In this document: positions 2,445-22,239 of the stretch, piece after piece | Layout: each line of letters starts with the position of its first letter | Numbering within the stretch: position 1 is the stretch's first letter | IMG/VR virus record: IMGVR_UViG_3300045961_000155 | Coordinates: 1-22,239 of that record | DNA from: a virus | Direction: 5' to 3' (one strand) | Length of the DNA: 22,239 nucleotides | The notes under the pieces: generated by a model | What the model was told of the DNA's origin: nothing | Databases searched by the model: none | The model's input: the letters and a program-made list of their open reading frames with translations, nothing else | Translations under genes and position numbers: made by a program

Positions 2445-3834
2445 ACGCCTCGCCAAGCTGCAGGCTCTCCGGCACGTCGAGCGGGCAGACTGGTCGCTCC
2501 CGACCATAGAGCTGGTCCCAGCGCTCTCAGGCGGTCAGCTCGAGGCCCCGCGCCACCTCGCTCCGTACGGTGAAGCGCTCGACGGTGCGATCGGCGGGAG
2601 CCTTCGGCTCGTGTTCTCTGCTCCTCCGCAGCATGGGAAGACCGAGACTACGAAGGCCGCAATCTGCCGGTGGCTCGCGACCGCGCCTGGAAAGCGCCAC
2701 GCTTACGTCACATACAATCAGGACCGCGCCGAATCGGTAGCGTACTGGGTGCGCGTGATGGCCTCCGAGGCCGGGCTGGTGCCGTCCGGGCACCTCGACC
2801 ACTGGCACTTCGCGAATCGTTCCGAGGTGAAATGGACCTCGATTGGAGGCTCGCTCACGGGGCAGCCAATCGACGGCGTGCTGATCATCGACGACCCCTT
2901 CAAGGACGCCGACGAGGCACGATCGAAGCTGTCGCGTGACCGCGCTGACGAATGGCTCCAGAAGGTCGGCATGGCCCGCCTTCACCCCGGGGCTAGCGTG
3001 ATCGTGATGGCCACCCGGTGGCACGAGGACGACCTCTCGGGCAGGCTCATCAAGCGCGGCTGGCGCGCGCTGAACCTGAAGGCCATAGCAGACGGGCCAG
3101 CGGACGAAAGCGGTGTGGTGCTCGACGACCCTATGGGTCGCAGGCTCGGCGAAGCGCTCTGGCCATCGCAGCGCCCAGCGAGCTTCCTAGCAGAGGCACG
3201 GCGCAACGCGCACACCTGGGCGGCTCTCTACCAGGGGGAGCCGAGGCCGCGCGGAGGTAAGGTCTTCGAGGGTGAGCCGGCGCGGTATATCGACCTCCCC
3301 GCCGGACCGTTCAGGGTCGGATATGGCGTCGATCTGGCGTACTCCTCAGCGACAAGCGCGGACTGGTCCGTGTGCCTTCGCGGGCGCCTCGTCGCGGGCA
3401 AGATCTACCTCACCGATTGCTGGCGTAAGCAGGTCGACGCGCCGTCGTTCGCTCTGACGCTGCGCGCGGCGCAGTCACAGCAGCGCGGCACCATGATCTG
3501 GCACGTAGCCGGCACCGAAAAGGGCGCGGCGCAGTTCATCGCAAAGAAGATCTCGAACTTCAGAGCTGTCCCGGCGACATCGGACAAGTACACCAGAGCG
3601 CAGCCTGCAGCCGAGCGCTGGAAGGCCGGCGAGATCTTGATCCCAGCCGAACAGAGCCCGCATTATGGCGAGTGGGTGAACGACTTCATCGACGAACTCG
3701 AGCTATTCTCCGGTCTGAAGGACCCGCACGACGACCAGGTCGATGCGCTCGGGTCACTGATCGAAGCGCTCGGCTCAGGCAGTTCCAAGCTCGACCCGCA
3801 ATTCGATCACGACCTACCGACCTTCGGACTGTAA
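2377..3834 (+). CDS. terminase large subunit (packaging ATPase/nuclease)
   Basis: A 485-residue motor protein that translocates DNA into the prohead and cuts it. The ATPase domain has Walker A SAPPQHGKTE (residues 81-90), Walker B GVLIIDDPF (167-175) and the coupling motif MATRWHEDDLSG (211-222). The C-terminal RNase H-like nuclease domain shows YGVDLAYS (316-323, first acidic residue D319) and HDDQVDALGSL (451-461, later acidic cluster). All expected motifs are intact and the length is normal for this family (Mu gp28-like/Terminase_6C type). ATG 2377 is preceded by AGGGAG at a short spacing. The gene starts inside the small terminase gene and its TAA overlaps the portal ATG by one base, implying coupled translation. 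Confidence 0.95.
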   Translation: MGWVRDQIRAKRDQKILPRLAAERLAKLQALRHVERADWSLPTIELVPALSGGQLEAPRHLAPYGEALDGAIGGSLRLVFSAPPQHGKTETTKAAICRWLATAPGKRHAYVTYNQDRAESVAYWVRVMASEAGLVPSGHLDHWHFANRSEVKWTSIGGSLTGQPIDGVLIIDDPFKDADEARSKLSRDRADEWLQKVGMARLHPGASVIVMATRWHEDDLSGRLIKRGWRALNLKAIADGPADESGVVLDDPMGRRLGEALWPSQRPASFLAEARRNAHTWAALYQGEPRPRGGKVFEGEPARYIDLPAGPFRVGYGVDLAYSSATSADWSVCLRGRLVAGKIYLTDCWRKQVDAPSFALTLRAAQSQQRGTMIWHVAGTEKGAAQFIAKKISNFRAVPATSDKYTRAQPAAERWKAGEILIPAEQSPHYGEWVNDFIDELELFSGLKDPHDDQVDALGSLIEALGSGSSKLDPQFDHDLPTFGL

Positions 3835-5540
3835 TGGCGCGCCGCTTTCTTCGCCCCCACGGGGCCACATCGGGGCGCGGCGGGCCCGGTCAGATCGTCG
3901 TGATGCCGATGTCGGCCTCGACGGTACCGTTCACGACGTGGACGGTTGATACCGTGCTCTCTGCGATCGATCAGCATGAGGAGGGCAGTTTTTGCGAGTC
4001 GTCAAAGCTGATTGACTCGTTCGGCCGTGACGAGCGCATCCGAGCCGACCTCGCGACACGCGCGAACGCGCTGGTCGGAAAGAACGCTCTCGAGTTTTCG
4101 ATCGTCGGCGAAGACAACGGGCGACCGGCAAGCGCGAAGGCCGGCGCCAAGGGTAAGCACGTCGAAGAGGTCGAGTCGTGGTTCTGGGATGCGATCCCGG
4201 AAGACGTCCAGCGCGCCACGATCCGCTCTGCTGTCATGTGCGGGGTGGCGTACGGACCGATCCGGTGGACGCCGGTCGATGGTCAGTGGCTACCGCGCGT
4301 GGAGATCTGGCCGAACGAGGCGCTCTGGTGGGACGACTCGCGGAGCGTCTATCGCGCCGCGACGCAGCAGGGGCAGGTCGATATCGTACCCGGGACCGGC
4401 GAGTGGTTTCTGTTCGCTCCCGACGGTGCGCGATCGTGGATGGCTGGCGCGGTACGTGCGCTCGGCCTGCTCGCGCTGATGCGGCGGTTCACATATCGCG
4501 GCTGGTCGCGATTCTGCGAGCGTCACGGCCTGCCGATTATCGCGGTGACCGAGCCTGGCGGCGCCGACGATCCGAACGACACGAGCAAGCGGTCGTTTTA
4601 CTCGTCGATGCGAAACCTCGGCTCGACCGGCGTGGTCCGGCTGCCGAGTGACGAATGGAAGCTCGACCTCAAGGAGCTGAGCTCCACAGGGTGGAAGGCT
4701 TTCCAGGAGTTTTTGCGGGACGCCTCGACCGCGATCAGCATAACACTGCTCGGGCAGAACCTAACGACCGAGGTCCGCGGCGGCAGCTACGCCGCGGCCC
4801 AGGCGCACCTCCGCGTCCGACAGGACTACCTCGACAGCGACGCGAATGGCTTCGCCGACGCGATCCGCGATTGCGTGGTCAAGCCTTGGGGTCGATTCAA
4901 CCTCCGCGGCTGGAACGACACAGACGCGCCGTGGCCCCAGTGGAACACTGGCATCCCGGAGGACAGGAAGGCCAAGGCCGACACTTGGAAGTCCGCTGGT
5001 GAGGCGCTGAAGGGCCTACGTGACCAGCGCATTCCGGTGGACGTCGCCGGCTGGTGCGAGCAGTTCGGAATCCCGCTGATCGATGGCGCCGTGATGCCGG
5101 AGCTCCCTGAGGAGCGCCAGGCGCAGCCGGTGCCCACACCTCCAGACGATGACGAAAGCGAAGCCGAGGACGAGGGCGACGATACCGACGAGCCACCGGA
5201 CTCGAACGCCGGCGGGGCAGTCGAAGCGCGCCACCGCGCCCGCCCCCAAGCGGCCGCCTCCGATCCGGACCCCGGCGATCAATACGTCTCCCGGCTCACC
5301 GAGAGCCTGAGCGGCACGGTCGCCACCGACCTCGACGGGCACATTGCCGAGATCTTGGCGATCGTCCAGCGCGCCGAGAGCCCCGACGACTACGAAGCGA
5401 TCAGGCAGCAGATCGTGGACTACTACCGCGACAAGATGGACCCCGGCACCATCGCCGATCTGACGCGCGCTGGCCTCGTTCTCGCGCAGCTCGCCGGGCG
5501 ATTCACCGTGCTGGGCGAGGTCGCCGACGGTGAGCCGTGA
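3834..5540 (+). CDS. portal protein, Mu gp29-like (DUF935)
   Basis: A 568-residue portal forming the dodecameric DNA gate at the head vertex. Family-like segments are the N-terminal block around SFGRDERIRADLATRANALVG (about 62-82), the middle FCERHGLPIIAVTEPGG, and the signature LLGQNLTTEVRGGSYAAAQAH followed by VVKPWGRFNLRG. An Asp/Glu-rich linker (about 438-458) joins a C-terminal helical domain seen in DUF935 proteins. I chose ATG 3834, which overlaps the terminase TAA (TAATG), rather than the in-frame ATG at 3672 that would bury over 160 nt in the terminase gene. No clear ribosome-binding site precedes it, so it probably relies on translational coupling. The stop overlaps the next gene by 4 nt. 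Confidence 0.92.
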   Translation: MARRFLRPHGATSGRGGPGQIVVMPMSASTVPFTTWTVDTVLSAIDQHEEGSFCESSKLIDSFGRDERIRADLATRANALVGKNALEFSIVGEDNGRPASAKAGAKGKHVEEVESWFWDAIPEDVQRATIRSAVMCGVAYGPIRWTPVDGQWLPRVEIWPNEALWWDDSRSVYRAATQQGQVDIVPGTGEWFLFAPDGARSWMAGAVRALGLLALMRRFTYRGWSRFCERHGLPIIAVTEPGGADDPNDTSKRSFYSSMRNLGSTGVVRLPSDEWKLDLKELSSTGWKAFQEFLRDASTAISITLLGQNLTTEVRGGSYAAAQAHLRVRQDYLDSDANGFADAIRDCVVKPWGRFNLRGWNDTDAPWPQWNTGIPEDRKAKADTWKSAGEALKGLRDQRIPVDVAGWCEQFGIPLIDGAVMPELPEERQAQPVPTPPDDDESEAEDEGDDTDEPPDSNAGGAVEARHRARPQAAASDPDPGDQYVSRLTESLSGTVATDLDGHIAEILAIVQRAESPDDYEAIRQQIVDYYRDKMDPGTIADLTRAGLVLAQLAGRFTVLGEVADGEP

Positions 5541-7123
5541 CCGCGCTCCGTGCGACCGCTGACGTACAGCGGTTCGATGAGGCGGTGAACTGGTTCCAGC
5601 GCCGCATCCCGGTGACCCGCGCCATGCGGGACCAGATGCAGGAGTGGGCCGGCACCCGCGTCTGGTGGGTCTCGGGGACGCAGCATCTTGATGTGGTGGT
5701 CACGACTCACGCGATCATCGCGAACGCGATCGAGAAAGGCACCCCTCCACACCTCCTGGTCAAGGAGCTGAAGCACGTCCTCCCGCAGCTCTCTGACTCA
5801 CGTCTTGCCACGGTAGCGCGCACGAACCTGCATAGCGCGTTCAACGCGGGTCGCTGGCAGCAGCTGAACGACCCGGACATCCGGGAGCTCCGCCCGTTCT
5901 GGCAGTTTGACGCGACCGACGACTTTCGCACCACCGACGGGTGCAGGGCACTCGACGGGACCGCGCTGCCGAACGATGACCCGTTCTGGCTGACGAATTG
6001 GCCGCCGAGGCACTTCCAGTGCAGGAGCCAGGTCCGCGCGATTCGTCGCAAGGTCTACGAGCGGCTGCCGCCGGAGAAGAAGCGACTCCCGGACGACTAC
6101 GAGAAGGCCGGCAAGGGCTTCGGACTGCCTCCGGACCTCGAGGTGCCGTGGAGACCAGACTTGTCGAAGGTGCCGGCTGAGGTCCGGTCGATCTTCGAAG
6201 CGAAGGCCAAGCGCGCATCAGACGCCGCGGAGGCCGCATCCGAAGCGGAGCGGAAGAAGCGCGTCACTCACACCCCAGAGCACTGGCTCCCGGAGTACGA
6301 GCAGCAGTATGGGCCCGAGGCGGGCCTGGCTGTGGCTCGAGGGCGAGCAGCACTTGAGGCGGGACTCGACGAGCCGGCGTCCAGCGTGCTCGACGAGTTC
6401 GAGCGGCTGTCGGCTGCCGGAGTGCCGGGGTTCGACGCCAGAGATCTCGAGGCGGTTCGAGGCTACATCGGGAAGCGTGGCACGGGGGACGTGCGCAGCG
6501 CCCTCGAGGGGATGCCGCCGGGCAAACGGCAAGCGGTCGAGGCAGCCGCCGCCATCGCAGGCCATTCGCTGGCGCTCGACAGGGGCCCCGCTCGCAGGAT
6601 CGAGCGACGGATCGCCGTCATGCACCCGGAGTCGAGACCGACGGCAGAGCGATACGCGAGAGCCGCCGAGCGGTTCTTCTCCGAGCTGAGCGGGCGCACC
6701 GTTCGCTTTCCGAGCGGCTGGAAGTTCGATTACGGCTTCGTCCAGCGGTCGCACTGTGCAGTGGGTGCACAGGAGATTCGCTCCGCGCCGATGAAACCGA
6801 CCGACTTCATCCACGAGATTTGCCACGCGCTCGATGCGCTGAACCCATCACTCGCCAGGAGGGCCGTTGAGTTCCTGGCTCGCCGCACCGCTGGCGAACT
6901 GGCGATCTGGCTCGGGCACCTCACCGGCGATCCGAGATACTCCGAGCGCGAGACGGCCAAACCCGACCGGTTTTTCACCCCGTACCTCGGGCGGCAGTAT
7001 CCCGACGGTAGCACCGAGATCACCGCGATCCTGGCGGAGTCGGTCGCGAAGTCGTTCTGGCGTCTCTACGCCGAAGATCCCGAGGCGTTCCTGTTCATCC
7101 TTGGGCAACTGCAAGCCGCGTGA
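5537..7123 (+). CDS. Mu gpF-like minor head protein fused to an HExxH metallopeptidase-like domain
   Basis: A 528-residue protein starting at GTG 5537 in a GTGA overlap with the portal. Residues about 60-170 are a Mu gpF/SPP1 gp7-type minor head domain: RTNLHSAFNAGRWQQL, RPFWQFDATDDFRTTDGCRALDG (123-142 region) and NWPPRHFQCRSQVRAIRR (154-171). An Ala/Glu/Lys-rich helical linker (219-245) leads to a C-terminal extension. There, TDFIHEICHALD contains HEICH at 426-430 (H426, E427, H430), a zinc metallopeptidase HExxH motif. STEITAILAESV (492-503) offers E494 or E501 as the third ligand of a gluzincin. MuF proteins are known to carry variable C-terminal effector domains. Peptidase activity, and delivery with the DNA, are inferred. 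Confidence 0.88.
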   Translation: MTALRATADVQRFDEAVNWFQRRIPVTRAMRDQMQEWAGTRVWWVSGTQHLDVVVTTHAIIANAIEKGTPPHLLVKELKHVLPQLSDSRLATVARTNLHSAFNAGRWQQLNDPDIRELRPFWQFDATDDFRTTDGCRALDGTALPNDDPFWLTNWPPRHFQCRSQVRAIRRKVYERLPPEKKRLPDDYEKAGKGFGLPPDLEVPWRPDLSKVPAEVRSIFEAKAKRASDAAEAASEAERKKRVTHTPEHWLPEYEQQYGPEAGLAVARGRAALEAGLDEPASSVLDEFERLSAAGVPGFDARDLEAVRGYIGKRGTGDVRSALEGMPPGKRQAVEAAAAIAGHSLALDRGPARRIERRIAVMHPESRPTAERYARAAERFFSELSGRTVRFPSGWKFDYGFVQRSHCAVGAQEIRSAPMKPTDFIHEICHALDALNPSLARRAVEFLARRTAGELAIWLGHLTGDPRYSERETAKPDRFFTPYLGRQYPDGSTEITAILAESVAKSFWRLYAEDPEAFLFILGQLQAA

Positions 7124-9034: not shown

Positions 9035-9853
9035 ATGGCTCTCACCACCGAACGAAACACCACGCAATATGGCAGCACGGCCGACCCCGAGCTGCTGTCC
9101 CTGCCCGTCGCGGCAGCCACCAAGATCTACCAGGGATCGATCGTCTGCGACAACGGCTCTGGCTACGCCACGAAGGGCGCCGTCTCCACGGCGCTGATTG
9201 CGTGCGGCATCGCCGAGCAGACAGTCGACAACACGGGCGACGCTGGCGCGCTTCAGGTGCCTGTGCGACGCGGCGCGTTCTGGCTCCAGAACAGCACCGG
9301 AAACGCGGTCACCATCGCCGAGCGTTACTCCTATTGCTACATCGAGGACGACTCGATCGTGAGCAAGGAGAACGGTGGCGGCACGCGCTCGATCGCTGGC
9401 ATCGTGCTCGATGTGGACGCTTCGCAGGGCGTGCTGGTGCTCGTCGGCGCCGCAACGCAGGTCGTGTCCAGCACGGCGAGCGCGAAGGCGATTCAGACTC
9501 GCTCGGTCCGCATCCGCGACGAGGACGCAGCCGTCACCGGCGCCAGCGCCGCGATCAACATCGGAGCCGTGCTCCCGACCGGCGCCATCGTGCTCGGCCA
9601 TGAGATCAACATCGTCGAGCAGTTCGCCGGCGAGGCGGATACGACCCTCACGATCGGCGGGACTGACGCTGACGCGATCGTGGCGTCGTTCGACCTCGAC
9701 GCGCAGGCCCCGGGCAACATCTCGCCGCGCACCGGCGTTCACGCCCAGGGCAGCTTCAGCGGGGAGCAGTTGGTGGCAACGCTGGCCGCAACCGCGCTCG
9801 GAGACCTCACCGCCGGAGACATGACGATCACCGTCTGGTTCTTCGTCCCCTGA
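9035..9853 (+). CDS. two-domain head decoration-like protein
   Basis: A 272-residue protein with AAGGA 8 nt before the ATG. Residues about 20-142 resemble the capsid cement/decoration family seen before Mu-like capsid genes: LPVAAATKIYQGSIVC, GYATKGAV, GIAEQTVDNTGDAGAL and CYIEDDSIVS, a beta-tulip-like pattern. Residues about 150-272 form a second beta-rich domain (NIGAVLPTGAIVLGHEINIV, IGGTDADAIVASFDL, LTAGDMTITVWFFV) that looks like a separate class of small virion protein. The fusion appears genuine: one continuous frame and no internal ribosome-binding site seen. Its place between protease/scaffold and major capsid protein matches Mu gp33. Surface stabilisation of the shell is the likely role. 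Confidence 0.78.
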   Translation: MALTTERNTTQYGSTADPELLSLPVAAATKIYQGSIVCDNGSGYATKGAVSTALIACGIAEQTVDNTGDAGALQVPVRRGAFWLQNSTGNAVTIAERYSYCYIEDDSIVSKENGGGTRSIAGIVLDVDASQGVLVLVGAATQVVSSTASAKAIQTRSVRIRDEDAAVTGASAAINIGAVLPTGAIVLGHEINIVEQFAGEADTTLTIGGTDADAIVASFDLDAQAPGNISPRTGVHAQGSFSGEQLVATLAATALGDLTAGDMTITVWFFVP

Positions 9854-9900
9854 TAGGCGGGCAATACCCTCTCTCTTCTGATCGATCGAAAGGCAACATC

Positions 9901-10836
9901 ATGGACCTGAGCCCCAGCACGGTTCGCGCTCTGCGGACCTCCTTCAACAAGTCCTTCCAGGACGGCTACAGCGGCGCCGCGACCTTCTATGAGAAGCTCT
10001 GCACGGTCGTCCCGAGTTCCACTTCGCAGAACGACTACGGTTGGATGGCAGACCTCCCGAACATGCGGGAGTGGCTCGGCGAGCGGCTGATCGTGAACCT
10101 CGCCACGCACTCCTACCAGCTCAAGAACAAGGACTTCGAGCTGACCGTTGGCGTCGATCGAAACGACATCGAGGATGACAACCTCGGTCAGTATTCGATG
10201 CTATTCGCTCAGATGGGCGAGAGCTCGAGGAAGCACCCGGACGTGCTCGTTACCCCGCTTCTGAAGGGTGGCGAGGACGCGACCTCGCTCTGCTTCGACG
10301 GGCACCCGTTCTTCGACACCGATCACCCTGTGTCCCCGTACGACTCGAGCAAGGGGACATACCTGAACTACAACTCGACCGGCGTGGCTCTCACCCAGGC
10401 GAACTTCCTGGTTCGCCGCGCGGCCATGATGGGTCGCATGGGCGACTCGGGTCGTGCGCTCGGGATCATCCCGAACCTCCTGGTTGTGCCTCCGGCGCTC
10501 GAGGGGATGGGGCTCCGCATCCTGAGGGCCTCGACCATCCACACCGAGGACAGCGGCGGCGCTTCCGCGGCCGCGCCGGCGAACATCACCCAGGGCATGG
10601 CAGACTTGCTGGTGCTCCCGGAGCTCGCCGGAGAGGATACGACCTGGTACCTGTTCGCCACCAGCCGCGTGATCAAGCCGTTCGTGTTCCAGCGTCGCAA
10701 GGCGCCGGAATTCGTCACGAAGACCGCTGTCACCGACGACAACGTATTCCTGACGAAGAAGTTCCTCTACGGCGTGGACGCCCGCTACAACGCCGGTTTC
10801 ACGCTGCCGTTCTTGGCAGACAAGAACGTGGCGTGA
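9901..10836 (+). CDS. major capsid protein, Mu gpT-like
   Basis: A 311-residue protein preceded by GAAAGG 7 nt before ATG 9901. Recognisable gpT-like features are the N-terminal ALRTSFNKSFQDGY, then YGWMADLPNMREWLGER and LKNKDFELTVGVDRNDIEDD (about 76-95), the middle CFDGHPFFDTDHP, and the C-terminal TKKFLYGVDARYNAGF. It forms the HK97-fold icosahedral shell. The normal length and a separate upstream protease and scaffold indicate the standard Mu assembly route. It follows the decoration protein and precedes a gp35-like gene, which is the Mu order. Confidence 0.93.
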   Translation: MDLSPSTVRALRTSFNKSFQDGYSGAATFYEKLCTVVPSSTSQNDYGWMADLPNMREWLGERLIVNLATHSYQLKNKDFELTVGVDRNDIEDDNLGQYSMLFAQMGESSRKHPDVLVTPLLKGGEDATSLCFDGHPFFDTDHPVSPYDSSKGTYLNYNSTGVALTQANFLVRRAAMMGRMGDSGRALGIIPNLLVVPPALEGMGLRILRASTIHTEDSGGASAAAPANITQGMADLLVLPELAGEDTTWYLFATSRVIKPFVFQRRKAPEFVTKTAVTDDNVFLTKKFLYGVDARYNAGFTLPFLADKNVA

Positions 10837-18365: not shown

Positions 18366-19526
18366 ATGAGCGCCCCGAGCCCCACTGTCAACGGACTCCG
18401 CCTGCTGTCCGCGCGCATCACGGAGCCGGCTATCGGTGCGTGGACCGCGGACATCGAGCACGACGGCACCGAGGCCCTGAGCGGCGCGGTGAAGATCGCA
18501 CTCGACGGAGAGACCTGGAGTGGCACCGCGGCCACATCGAAGGTCGAGGCGGGCCGCGTCAAGAGCAGGATCGTCGGCGGAGCGAACGGGCTCGGGGTCG
18601 AGCTCCAGGCGCGGTCCTACAGCCACCCGAGCGGGTCACTCACGCTCGCAACCCCGTTCGCCGACATCCTTCGCGAGGCCGGCGAGACCGCATCCTCGAC
18701 GGCAGAAACGCCCACGACGGCCGTAGCGAACTGGGTGCGCGGGCTTGGCACGGCTGCTGCCGCGCTGAAGGCCATCGCGTCGAAGTCTGGGCGCTCCTGG
18801 CGCGTCCTGCGAGATGGGACCGTTTGGTTCGGGGTCGAGACCTGGCCCGAGCATGTCCCGCTGGTACCGCCGATCGAGATCGATACAGACTGGTCCGACG
18901 GCAACGTCGAGCTCCGCGACGCGGCGAGCTTCAGCCCTGGCGTCACCTACCAGGGCCATCGGATCCAGCAAGTGGTCCACGAGTACCGCGGCTCCGGCAC
19001 ATCGACCACGCTATCGACCGAGAGCTCGAGCGGGACATTCGATCGCATCCTTGACGCCGTTCGGCGCGAGGTGGACTACCGAACGGTCTGGCCCGGCAGG
19101 GTCACCAAGCAGCACACCGACCACACGCTGGAGGTCGTCTGCGATGACCCGCGGATATCGGGCTCCGGGATCGACCGGGTGCCTATCGCTCCCGGCCTTC
19201 CTGGGATTCTGGTCGAGGTCCCGCTGGGCGCGCGCTGCTTCGTCGAGTTTGCCGGCGGTGACCCGGCGCGACCCCGCGTGTGCGGCTGGGATCACGAGAC
19301 CGCGTTGACCCTGATCACCGTCGGCGGGACAGGCGCGGATTTCGTTGCGCTCGCTGGACTCGTCAAGTCGCAGCTCGACAACATCAAGGCCGAATTCGAC
19401 CTACTGAAGACAGCCTACAACGCTCACGTCCACCCGACGGGCGTAGGACCGAGCGGACCGACGACGCCTTACGCGGTCACCTACGCGGCCGCAGCAGTAG
19501 CCGCGACGAAGCTCAAGACCGTCTGA
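18366..19526 (+). CDS. baseplate hub/spike protein with gpV-type OB fold
   Basis: A 386-residue protein. Residues 1-240 look hub-like (gp27/gpP type), including FSPGVTYQGHRIQQVVHEY (189-207), a typical hub segment. Residues about 241-310 are an OB-fold module of the gpV/gp45/gp5 class: WPGRVTKQHTDHTLEVVCDD, GLPGILVEVPLGARCFVEF and GGDPARPRVCGW. A short helix (FVALAGLVKSQLDNIKAEFD) suits a trimeric coiled coil. YNAHVHPTGVGPSGP places an HxH pair (H354, H356), a motif that binds a metal ion at the tip of some phage spikes. It thus seems to join hub and spike, two genes in Mu (gp44 and gp45), in one chain. Its TGA overlaps the next ATG. Confidence 0.8.
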   Translation: MSAPSPTVNGLRLLSARITEPAIGAWTADIEHDGTEALSGAVKIALDGETWSGTAATSKVEAGRVKSRIVGGANGLGVELQARSYSHPSGSLTLATPFADILREAGETASSTAETPTTAVANWVRGLGTAAAALKAIASKSGRSWRVLRDGTVWFGVETWPEHVPLVPPIEIDTDWSDGNVELRDAASFSPGVTYQGHRIQQVVHEYRGSGTSTTLSTESSSGTFDRILDAVRREVDYRTVWPGRVTKQHTDHTLEVVCDDPRISGSGIDRVPIAPGLPGILVEVPLGARCFVEFAGGDPARPRVCGWDHETALTLITVGGTGADFVALAGLVKSQLDNIKAEFDLLKTAYNAHVHPTGVGPSGPTTPYAVTYAAAAVAATKLKTV

Positions 19527-20002
19527 TGCTCGACCAGCCCGCGCTCGCCGCCGCGCTTCAGGCGACATTCGAAAGCATGCCAGCGGCGGCTGCCGATGCG
19601 GCGGATGCGCTGGCCAACGACTACGCCACCTATGCCTCCGCGGCAACGTTCGGCGCGTCGCAACTCGAGGTGAGCGAGGCGGTAGCAACGGCGATGGGAG
19701 ATACTCTCTTCGCAGCAATCAGCGTCCCGGCGTCCGGTCTTCCGGCGACATTTGCCGCCGCGTGGGCGGCTGCTGTCGCGGCGTTCTGGGTCGGTCTCCC
19801 GGTGGTCGGGGCGCAGTCCGGAGCCACCGCAGGGTGCCCCGGCGCCGCATCGATCGCGGCCACGTTGACCGCCGTATTTGCGAACCTCGCCAACAGCGCC
19901 GGCGTCTGTGCCGTCGCGCTCGCCGCCGCTCTCCACGGCGCAACGCTCACCGTGACGGCCACGGTAGCACCTCCCGCCGGGACCGTCCTTCCGATCGCGT
20001 GA
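19526..20002 (+). CDS. Ala-rich small phage protein of unknown function
   Basis: A 158-residue protein from ATG 19526 (TGATG overlap with the hub/spike gene); an earlier in-frame ATG at 19280 would overlap that gene by about 250 nt. It is dominated by Ala and small hydrophobics. It starts MLDQPALAAALQATFESMP with helices, then has TFAAAWAAAVAAFWVGLPV (about 75-93), which is hydrophobic enough for one membrane-like helix, and ends in a beta-like LTVTATVAPPAGTVLP. The family is not recognised. A baseplate accessory is plausible because of the tight coupling. The hydrophobic segment leaves holin-like or membrane function open, but charged end regions and topology do not clearly support it. Confidence 0.65.
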   Translation: MLDQPALAAALQATFESMPAAAADAADALANDYATYASAATFGASQLEVSEAVATAMGDTLFAAISVPASGLPATFAAAWAAAVAAFWVGLPVVGAQSGATAGCPGAASIAATLTAVFANLANSAGVCAVALAAALHGATLTVTATVAPPAGTVLPIA

Positions 20003-20006
20003 ACCC

Positions 20007-21119
20007 ATGGCCTACACTAATCCCTTCACCGGCTCGTCCGCTCTCCGAACCGCTCGTCACGCCGAGTCGATCGTCGGCATGTCCGACGGCGACGCACTCA
20101 CGGGCGCGAACGAACTCGATCAGGCGAACCGGATCGGTGAGTCGCTGCTCGCGCTCCGGCGAGCGTCGCTACTTCAGATCACGGGGTTTGGCGCATCGGC
20201 ACCGTATGGCGCGATCGAGGCGCGGTACAACGTTGGAACCTATCTGCTGTTTGATGCGTCGACCTACGACTACTGTTCCAGGATGCTGGACTACGATCCG
20301 CCCCTTCTGAGCCCCACCGCGTGGCCCGGAGCCGGGTCGAATCCAAATTCGTTCGTGCCTGGCGCGCACTCGACAAGCAGCATGTTCTCCGTGGTCGCGT
20401 TCCGCGGCTATTCCTACGCCGTGAGCGCCGGGACCGGCCTTTTCGCTGCCGGGCTCGCGCTCCCGGACTCGATGGTCGACGTTGGTGATATGGCCGTCGC
20501 GTCGAAGACTGGAGGAGACGTCGCACTGGTGTGCGGACTCACCGCAGGCTCGTCTGCGGTCGCCGGCTGGAGCAACGCGCCGGGGACCAGTTGGACGGCG
20601 GCAACCGGGACTCCTGCGGGTGACTCCAACTGGGCGGGGCGAGGGCGATTCGCGGTCGGGGGCGCCGACGGAACCAGCGTGATCCTCATGCCGACCGACG
20701 CCACGTCTGGTGTGAGCGCGATCTGGTGGTCGGAGGACAGCGGCGAGACCTACACGAAGGTGGTCCATGGGATCTCTGGCGTGAAGTTCTTCGCCGGTGG
20801 CGGGTACGATGCAGCGCTCGGTCGCTGGCTCCTCGCTGACGCACAGACGGATGATCTCTACGCCTCCGCGGCGCCGGGGACTCCAGGATCGTGGTCGAAG
20901 CTGACGGACATAGGGACTCAGACGGTGGATTTCTTCGTCCTCCGCGGCGGCCTATACCTGTCGTGCGGGACGGGCATGATTCACGCCTCGTGGGACGGCG
21001 GTACCAGCTGGGAATCGATCCGGTGCCCGACCCCTACGTTTACGCGCGGCAGGATCGTGGACGGCCGTCTCTGGATGTTCGGCACAGTGGACACGTTCTG
21101 CACCGGCGTCGTCGAGTGA
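20007..21119 (+). CDS. Asp-box (BNR-like) beta-propeller protein, putative receptor-binding tail protein
   Basis: A 370-residue protein four bases after the previous stop. Residues 1-60 are helical and polar and may anchor it to the virion. The rest is Gly/Ser/Trp-rich with Asp-box motifs (SxDxGxxW/Y): WSEDSGETY (241-249) and SWDGGTSWESI (328-338), plus degenerate copies WSNAPGTSW (188-196) and SAAPGTPGSW (287-296). Spacing of about 42-53 residues fits blades of a beta-propeller as in sialidases and glycan-binding proteins. No catalytic Arg triad can be assigned, so binding rather than hydrolysis is the safer guess. It interrupts the usual hub-to-gp46 block and is probably a receptor-binding component. 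Confidence 0.72.
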   Translation: MAYTNPFTGSSALRTARHAESIVGMSDGDALTGANELDQANRIGESLLALRRASLLQITGFGASAPYGAIEARYNVGTYLLFDASTYDYCSRMLDYDPPLLSPTAWPGAGSNPNSFVPGAHSTSSMFSVVAFRGYSYAVSAGTGLFAAGLALPDSMVDVGDMAVASKTGGDVALVCGLTAGSSAVAGWSNAPGTSWTAATGTPAGDSNWAGRGRFAVGGADGTSVILMPTDATSGVSAIWWSEDSGETYTKVVHGISGVKFFAGGGYDAALGRWLLADAQTDDLYASAAPGTPGSWSKLTDIGTQTVDFFVLRGGLYLSCGTGMIHASWDGGTSWESIRCPTPTFTRGRIVDGRLWMFGTVDTFCTGVVE

Positions 21120-21127
21120 CCGGTCAC
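21116..21127. repeat. 12-bp perfect palindrome at the convergent gene junction
   Basis: GTGACCGGTCAC is its own reverse complement and contains both convergent stop codons: TGA of the propeller gene and TCA (minus-strand TGA) of the lipoprotein gene. The genes are separated by only four bases. It has no loop or T-run, so it is not an obvious terminator. Confidence 0.45.
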
Positions 21128-21984
21128 CGATCCCAGACGCACACCACCCGCGCGGTACCATCGTTCGCAGCGACGCAGCTTTGGCCCTCTCCGCACCTGA
21201 GGCCGCACGCTCCGCAATTCTCCGGGTCCGGCATGCGCTCGCATTTGTTTGCTGGGTCGCCGTCGCAATCGTAGGTCGCATACAGTCCAGGGCACGGCTC
21301 GCAGCGCGGCTCCGCCCCTTCCCAGGGCACCCAACACCAATAGGCGCCCTGGTAGACCGACCAGCACGTTCCGGGGCCCGTCCAGGCGCCGCCGGGGTGG
21401 CAGTCGAGGATGCGCGGGGCACCGCCGCTGCCGCCCGCAGGAGCGCCACCGCTCGTAGCTCCACCGGAAGGCGCTCCGCCCGACGGAGCCCCACCGGAGG
21501 TAGCGCCGCCGCTCGTAGCGCCGCCCGCTGGTGAGCCTCCCGACGTGGCGCCGCCCATCTCCGACGCACCGCCGACCCCGGCGCCACCCTCGCCGCTCGC
21601 TGCTCCCTGACCGCCAGCTGGAGTTCCGGCCGCGCCCGCTGCGCCCGCTGTTCCGGACCACCCGGAGCTACCAGAGATCGAGCCGCCGGCCACACCGCCT
21701 GCTGCCCCGCCGGACGCGCCGGCCGCACCAGACGCGCCAGCGCCCGAGGCTCCACCCAAAGTCGCACCAGCGGTCCCTGATGCGCCGCCAGAGACCACGG
21801 CCGGGCTGCCGGCGCCCGGCGCTCCACCGGTGGTCTCGAGCCCTCTGGAGCCTCCCGACGGAGCTCCGCCGCTCGTCTCGACGAGACCGCCGCTCCCTCC
21901 GCTGACGAGGGGCCCGCTCCCCGCGCTCTTCAGCCCGCAACCGCTCACCATGGCCGCCGTCAACACGATCGATTCGATGCGCAT
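21124..21984 (-). CDS. cysteine-rich lipoprotein with Gly/Ala/Ser linker (candidate moron)
   Basis: A 286-residue protein on the opposite strand to every other gene. The N-terminus is a lipoprotein signal peptide (MRIESIVLTAAMVSGCGLKS) with lipobox VSGC, so C16 would be lipidated. Residues about 20-190 are a low-complexity linker of Gly, Ala, Ser, Thr and Pro, including eight GGxxx pentads at 144-183. The C-terminal about 95 residues hold 12 cysteines (195 to 282), enough for six disulfides, with PENCGACGLRCGEGQSC typical of secreted myxobacterial proteins. A likely -10 box sits 6 bases before the start codon. It looks like a cell-surface protein made by the lysogen, not a virion part; receptor masking or superinfection exclusion would be guesses. 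Confidence 0.8.
   Translation of the reverse strand: MRIESIVLTAAMVSGCGLKSAGSGPLVSGGSGGLVETSGGAPSGGSRGLETTGGAPGAGSPAVVSGGASGTAGATLGGASGAGASGAAGASGGAAGGVAGGSISGSSGWSGTAGAAGAAGTPAGGQGAASGEGGAGVGGASEMGGATSGGSPAGGATSGGATSGGAPSGGAPSGGATSGGAPAGGSGGAPRILDCHPGGAWTGPGTCWSVYQGAYWCWVPWEGAEPRCEPCPGLYATYDCDGDPANKCERMPDPENCGACGLRCGEGQSCVAANDGTARVVCVWDR
21436..21555 (-). repeat. 8 x 15-bp tandem coding repeat in the lipoprotein linker
   Basis: Eight consecutive 15-bp units encode pentapeptides GGATS, GGSPA, GGATS, GGATS, GGAPS, GGAPS, GGATS and GGAPA (residues 144-183). In-frame repeats of this size can gain or lose units by slippage, so linker length is likely to vary between relatives. Confidence 0.8.
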
Positions 21985-21990
21985 CCCGAG

Positions 21991-21996
21991 ATCATA
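21991..21996 (-). promoter_or_regulatory. -10 box for the lipoprotein gene
   Basis: On the minus strand the hexamer is TATGAT, five of six matches to TATAAT, standing out in a very GC-rich context. It lies 6 nt before the lipoprotein ATG, so the transcript would be leaderless or nearly so. No good -35 is seen at 16-18 bp. It lies in the 15-bp gap between the divergent lipoprotein and gp46-like genes. Confidence 0.45.
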
Positions 21997-21999
21997 ACC

Positions 22000-22239
22000 A
22001 TGTCCGCGGAATACGGCACCGATTTTTCATGCGTCACCGACCTGGACGCCGGTCTCTCCGTCGTCTCAGGGTCCCTGGCGCTGGTTCAGGCGGTGGCGCG
22101 CCGGTGGCTCTGCCCTGCCGGCGGACTCTGGTACGACCCGACATACGGCTACGGTCTGCTCCGGTGGCTCGGCGTGTCGGAGCCGCCGTTGCGGAAGATC
22201 TCTGCCGGCATGATCGCCGAGGCGCTGAAGGACGAGCGC
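22000..22239 (+). CDS. baseplate wedge protein, gp46/gp25-like (5' part, runs off the window)
   Basis: The frame opens at ATG 22000 and continues through the window end (80 codons visible). MSAEYGTDFSCVTDLDAG, then SGSLALVQAVARRWLCPAGG and LWYDPTYGYGLLRWLG match the layout of the Mu gp46 / T4 gp25-like baseplate family (D.....G...l.qai.rRl....G.l.yDp.YG..L). It is divergent from the lipoprotein gene with only 15 bp between starts, and has no clear ribosome-binding site. In Mu this gene follows the spike directly, so the baseplate block resumes here and a gp47-like gene would be expected next. Confidence 0.8.
   Translation, partial: MSAEYGTDFSCVTDLDAGLSVVSGSLALVQAVARRWLCPAGGLWYDPTYGYGLLRWLGVSEPPLRKISAGMIAEALKDER

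Follow-up and report, generated by a model that had tools for sequence, protein, structure and literature searches.

Phages encode superinfection-exclusion lipoproteins of the Cor/Llp type. The phage surface lipoprotein Ltp of TP-J34 likewise acts in superinfection exclusion (PMC3952083). Previous work has defined a moron as a coding region that has come to lie between two genes which are neighbours in related phages; morons usually have their own flanking promoter and terminator and a composition unlike that of their neighbours, and in some cases they are expressed from the repressed prophage (PMC4378225). Lambda bor encodes an outer-membrane lipoprotein that is expressed in lysogens, and moron loci antisense to late regions are also known, in which the accessory gene opposes lytic genes and has its own promoter (PMC7067206).

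Lipoprotein morons such as lambda Bor are thus already known, and what is new here is the presence of host-module lipoproteins, encoded antisense, at a recurrent junction within the baseplate operon of Mx4-like phages. Like lambda Bor, the protein described below is a phage lipoprotein that is predicted to reside in the outer membrane, is encoded in a late-gene region and is not conserved among relatives; unlike Bor, it has a long Gly/Ala/Ser/Thr stalk and a host-type Cys-rich domain, and its gene lies inside the baseplate operon. It is about three times as long as Bor, and we know of no sequence relation between the two. With Ltp and the Cor/Llp proteins it shares being a phage-encoded surface lipoprotein and, by the analogy that we propose, its role; it differs from them in location, size and domain, and no family match between them was found.

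The DNA analysed, referred to as the window, is an entire IMG/VR record of 22,239 bases carrying a Mu-like head-tail operon, in which we recognised terminase, Mu gpF, ClpP-type protease, gpT, sheath, tape measure, gp45-like and gp46-like genes. The closest isolated relative is Myxococcus phage Mx4 (gpT 43%, sheath 35%, gp45 27%), which has syntenic head-tail genes and orthologues of both gp45 and gp46. Because no lysogeny gene was recognised within the 22-kb window, we infer the temperance of this phage from its integrated relatives. The features of the gp45-gp46 region are collected in Table 1.

Table 1. Features between the gp45-like and gp46-like genes of the window, with their flanks
Feature	Position	Strand	Remarks
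gp45-like gene, left edge of cargo slot	18366..19526	+	tblastn to Mx4 p61/p62 and many prophages; alignment A1
Accessory gene, 158 aa, Ala-rich, in gp45-gp46 junction	19526..20002	+	like-placed Ala-rich ORFs in L002, L091
Accessory gene, 370 aa, left neighbour of lipoprotein gene	20007..21119	+	two Asp-box motifs, fold unconfirmed
Lipoprotein gene, 286 aa, ATG start	21124..21984	-	preferred by gene caller over + strand shadow ORFs; C-terminal unit homologous to host proteins
C-terminal 12-cysteine domain, residues 191-286	21127..21414	-	no relative found for first half
One Myxococcota 'NCGACG' Cys-rich repeat unit, CDGDPANKCE..DPENCGACGLRCGEGQSC	21166..21267	-	HMM E 9.8e-8; aligned with 14 host units
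Gly/Ala/Ser/Thr linker, 173 aa, residues 18-190	21415..21933	-	82% G/A/S/T, 6 charged residues
Signal peptide and lipobox VSG-C, Cys16	21937..21984	-	+2 Gly, +7 Gly
TATGAT hexamer	21991..21996	-	chance-level, no -35
gp46-like baseplate gene, right flank, cut by contig end	22000..22239	+	PHROG baseplate wedge E 2.3e-5

An earlier note, made from the letters of this DNA, had described a lone minus-strand lipoprotein gene with a lipobox, a linker of about 170 Gly/Ala/Ser/Thr residues and a 12-cysteine C-terminal domain, and each of these elements was recovered, at exactly the same coordinates and with exactly 12 Cys after the linker. At the start of the product stands MRIESIVLTAAMVSGC, which includes a short signal peptide and a lipobox; its lipoprotein signature, MRIESIVLTAAMVSG followed by C, passes a strict lipobox filter, so that lipidation is predicted from sequence. 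Across roughly 0.8 Mb of DNA from related phages, only 27 ORFs pass this filter, the window lipoprotein included. It is the sole credible minus-strand gene in the window, since the other minus-strand call of the gene caller, 2016-2363, is a shadow of a small-terminase-like ORF (1908-2444). Sorting of myxobacterial lipoproteins to the outer membrane has been reported to follow a rule of no Lys at +2 and no Ala at +7 (PMC5562445); as the window lipoprotein satisfies the rule at both positions, it is predicted to sort to the outer membrane. The gene has a GC content of 73.8% vs 66.8% for the window, and the excess lies in the Gly/Ala linker, the Cys domain (GC 68.7%, GC3 0.80) resembling the neighbouring genes.

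Searches with the lipoprotein returned no match in Pfam, NCBIfam or PHROG, none in the PDB by sequence, no close relatives in IMG/VR, phage records or Polyangiales genomes, and no homologue with a tested function. In its Cys domain there is a single unit with the consensus DCDxxxxDGCE..DPxNCGACGxxC..C, which is repeated in Myxococcota proteins and which we call the NCG unit. AlphaFold, run on the Cys domain with 15 alignment rows, was confident only at this unit (pLDDT about 80, last 30 residues). Longer-looking matches to the Cys domain in two genomes, G074 and G180, were judged on inspection to be due to chance. We built an HMM from 95 host units and ran it against the six-frame translation of 738 kb of phage DNA. 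Only four ORFs were matched, all antisense and all adjacent to baseplate genes: those of L096 (E 1.8e-22), the window (9.8e-8), L092 (3.4e-5) and L077 (2.3e-3). Because the window ORF both matches this host-repeat HMM and passes the strict lipobox filter, it is not a chance ORF. Against the MXAN_6577-like family NF041328, the best E-value was 0.0198, under the curated 100-bit cut-off. Judged by its residues, then, the window protein carries a unit related to NF041328 (the shared DC-D/N-G..CE..NCG.CG..C pattern) and lies outside the family itself; unlike the host proteins with NCGACG repeats, which are chromosomal and mostly multi-unit, it has a single unit.

The host-style architecture claimed in the earlier note was thereby supported, the Cys-rich unit being a massively repeated host module and the lipobox rule predicting the outer membrane. 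In several Polyangiales the unit has about 150 matches or more in each genome; the number of NCG matches per genome ranged from 143 to at least 150 in G241, G292, G293, G001, G296 and G322, and was only 2 in G337 and 9 in G390, whose prophages (L093 and L091, respectively) bear other lipoproteins. The prophages of G293 and G322 carry no NCG lipoproteins despite their NCG-rich hosts; with these exceptions, and among few genomes, the correlation between cargo and host NCG content is consistent with local capture from the host.

That the unit belongs to a host family matched well over a hundred times in a genome, and that cargo follows the host repertoire (NCG lipoproteins in the prophages of several NCG-rich genomes, others in the NCG-poor G337 and G390), would also suit a moron that benefits the host. 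Such a lipoprotein would have a social or predatory role, joining the NCG surface lipoproteins of the cell in adhesion, prey contact or self-recognition, or as goods handed on by outer-membrane exchange, raising host fitness and so paying the prophage's way without excluding phages. Prophage-borne social lipoproteins do exist in myxobacteria, SitA on Mx-alpha being the example (PMC5562445). Nevertheless, the searches made found no function for any NCG lipoprotein, and a single-unit protein on a stalk may be structural or a decoy; we regard this alternative as rather unlikely. It and the antisense-RNA effect discussed below are the chief rivals of the explanation that we favour.

SitA also raises the question of a polymorphic toxin delivered by outer-membrane exchange. 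Like the SitA toxins of Mx-alpha prophages, the window protein is a lipoprotein carried as cargo by a phage element of myxobacteria (PMC5562445), but unlike them it has no toxin domain detectable in Pfam or NCBIfam and no adjacent minus-strand immunity gene, and it ends in a Cys-rich knob. A toxin of this type is the least credible of the readings that we considered.

Mx4-like phages and prophages were gathered by searching IMG/VR, phage records and Myxococcota genomes for gpT and gp45, and the gp45-gp46 junction was read in 30 of them, with a few ends approximate (tblastn). A peptide-pattern search for gpT in genome contigs confirmed nothing. The two genes adjoin (82 bp or less) in 22 of the 30 junctions, in Mx4 and 21 other relatives, in agreement with the claim that the site is normally gapless. 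The other eight are occupied (window, L077, L092, L094, L113, L093, L002 and L091). In the window the junction measures 2473 bp, and the insertion is larger than the earlier note had supposed, since two plus-strand genes lie between gp45 and gp46 along with the lipoprotein gene. The right flank was correctly assigned as gp46-like: it matches PHROG and has syntenic orthologues (an alignment of 11, with 51% identity to that of L013). In contrast, the "propeller-type" label of the left neighbour was not confirmed. Its product had no match in Pfam, PHROG or NCBIfam and no relatives in IMG/VR, phage records or Polyangiales genomes, its AF2 model was unusable (pLDDT 35), and a motif search showed only the two Asp-box motifs.

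Antisense lipoproteins occupy the junction in the window and in three Polyangiales prophages, L077 (G241), L092 (G292) and L094 (G293), and this class of gene is absent from the junction in most relatives. Further antisense lipoproteins lie directly after gene J in L095 and L096. Lipoproteins are not the sole antisense cargo of the slot, because that of L113 is a non-lipoprotein that looks cytoplasmic; L002 and L091 have only Ala-rich or small plus-strand genes. On the gp45 tree, antisense occupancy requires at least three changes with bootstrap values of 3-5, and given such weak branching the antisense cargo may have had either one origin or several. The gp45 sequences diverged too far for their alignment to serve in a viral scan.

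Other lipoprotein genes were seen in these prophages. The G337 prophage junction is filled by a plus-strand lipoprotein (L093, oriented, 9504-9995) with the metzincin motif HELGHAMGLDH and weak matches to M12/M10 peptidases. At the right ends of L097, L098, L099, L101 and L102, from prophages of G397, G392 and G396, long antisense lipoproteins lie near sigma-factor-looking genes; those of L097-L099 have 28-29 Cys, and G397 has four gpT matches.

With 2473 bp between two genes that adjoin in most relatives, the window gene is a moron in the sense of an insertion. The synteny part of the earlier moron claim therefore stood, the gene being accessory; the part that relied on an independent promoter was not supported by the sequence. 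A TATGAT hexamer is indeed present upstream, but it occurs at chance frequency (3 copies in the window vs 1.46 expected) with no -35 element, and a transcription start set by it would coincide with the lipoprotein ATG. A scan of 20000-22239 for promoters of the sigma-70 type and for intrinsic terminators gave 0 sigma-70-like sites and no terminator. The start codons of the lipoprotein gene and gp46 diverge 15 bp apart, and its stop codon converges on that of 20007-21119 at a distance of 4 bp. Because these gaps leave no intergenic room, any lipoprotein promoter would lie inside gp46.

A promoter in that position means that the transcript must overlap gp46, and with the stops only 4 bp apart it could run through the gene into 20007-21119. 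It is conceivable that this antisense RNA is what matters, the protein being secondary, and that in the lysogen it dampens the late expression of baseplate genes, or silences this expression in superinfecting phages. There is precedent in the Salmonella prophage BTP1, where the tail-antisense RNA STnc6030 excludes superinfection (PMC7067206). We nevertheless think this improbable, given that a lipoprotein is encoded in most antisense-occupied slots, something that an effect of RNA would not call for, and that strong protein-level selection acts on the antisense frames of relatives.

That selection was measured in G241, where homologous lipoproteins are encoded three times: once in the L077 slot, and twice on a different contig, next to fragments of a truncated gp45. 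Their antisense frames differ mostly at third positions, with a dN/dS of 0.25-0.28 overall for the three copies and 0.05-0.22 in the Cys-rich end. Thus, the antisense lipoprotein frames of these paralogues, from the genome of a related prophage, are under purifying selection, and since their dN/dS is low, the antisense lipoproteins of the slot are real, selected proteins. The second G241 locus (L110, G241:C79:36000-51443, reverse complement) consists of two tandem units, each a truncated 3' part of gp45 and then an antisense NCG lipoprotein (features at 2899-3747, 4201-4689, 4855-5493 and 5588-6079), and thus of orphan gp45-lipoprotein cassettes; in its 15 kb we recognised nothing else from the L077 prophage. 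We abandoned the idea that gp45 decays there and only the lipoprotein is maintained, as both have a dN/dS near 0.25.

These results also bear on whether the window gene is a neutral passenger, that is, recently captured host DNA of no function. It has no close homologue and the exact gene occurs in one phage only, as such an origin would predict; against this, the 286-codon frame is intact and fits precisely between a stop and a start codon, the same class of gene recurs at the same slot, and relatives are under selection. We judge a passenger to be slightly less probable still than an effect of antisense RNA.

In some relatives a gene for a small membrane protein lies beside the antisense lipoprotein gene: L077 (12380-12736, minus strand), L092 (oriented, 9510-10076, minus strand), L095 and L096. 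This arrangement suggests a two-gene cassette from which the membrane member is missing in the window. Such a pairing of membrane protein and lipoprotein, which in L095 and L096 lies near J, might equally be read as a lysis module, in which a spanin-like lipoprotein of the outer membrane would have the small membrane protein as its inner-membrane partner. Unlike an o-spanin, which is a small lipoprotein encoded together with an i-spanin in the lysis cassette, the window protein is 286 aa long, is encoded antisense to the late operon and has no partner gene in the window, and the gene is missing from most relatives. A role in lysis therefore appears very improbable.

We conclude that the gene very probably encodes an accessory lipoprotein of host type. 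The fuller explanation that we favour, with moderate confidence, is a moron-type outer-membrane lipoprotein made of host modules and encoded antisense in the gp45-gp46 slot, which alters the surface of the lysogen, with exclusion as its likeliest role. We favour a surface-altering lipoprotein moron because lambda bor, the antisense accessory gene and Ltp-type exclusion are established analogues. We expect the protein to be exported, to receive its lipid at Cys16 and to reach the outer membrane; there, the flexible stalk of about 170 residues would hold a disulphide-rich knob off the membrane. Since the gene runs counter to the late operon and is missing from most relatives, expression from the prophage is likelier than production as a part of the virion. 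Related phages might then adsorb to, or inject into, the changed lysogen poorly. Superinfection exclusion is, by analogy, the likeliest single role, and we propose it tentatively. More generally, related prophages probably bear such genes to change the surface of the host cell.

Mx4 has its own antisense lipoprotein further downstream. Its gp45 and gp46 abut (2 bp), unlike those of the window, and its lipoprotein, encoded after the tail genes, is dissimilar. The CDS, WNM70406.1, is annotated as 'hypothetical' (OR576728.1 40561-40965, corresponding to L121 4562-4966, minus strand; L034 15561-15965, minus strand) and reads as a lipoprotein, MKNLVMLAVLALGAC followed by DGG; another Mx4 record, OK085710, annotates two small plus-strand ORFs at this site. 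Because Mx4 is already grown in the laboratory and its own antisense lipoprotein is comparable, the idea is open to immediate testing.

A broader and more speculative proposal, which we consider doubtful at present, is that in Mx4-like phages of Polyangiales the gp45/gp46 and post-J junctions are capture sites, into which surface lipoproteins made from the repertoire of the current host are swapped in antisense orientation. If true, this would give prophages a standing mechanism to redress the outer surface of their hosts. Phage cargo in myxobacteria has been little studied, and these social predators rely on outer-membrane lipoproteins. The recurrent antisense lipoprotein slot offers a simple rule for finding such cargo across many genomes, and it may provide a first phenotype for the NCG Cys-rich proteins, a very large family in Polyangiales.
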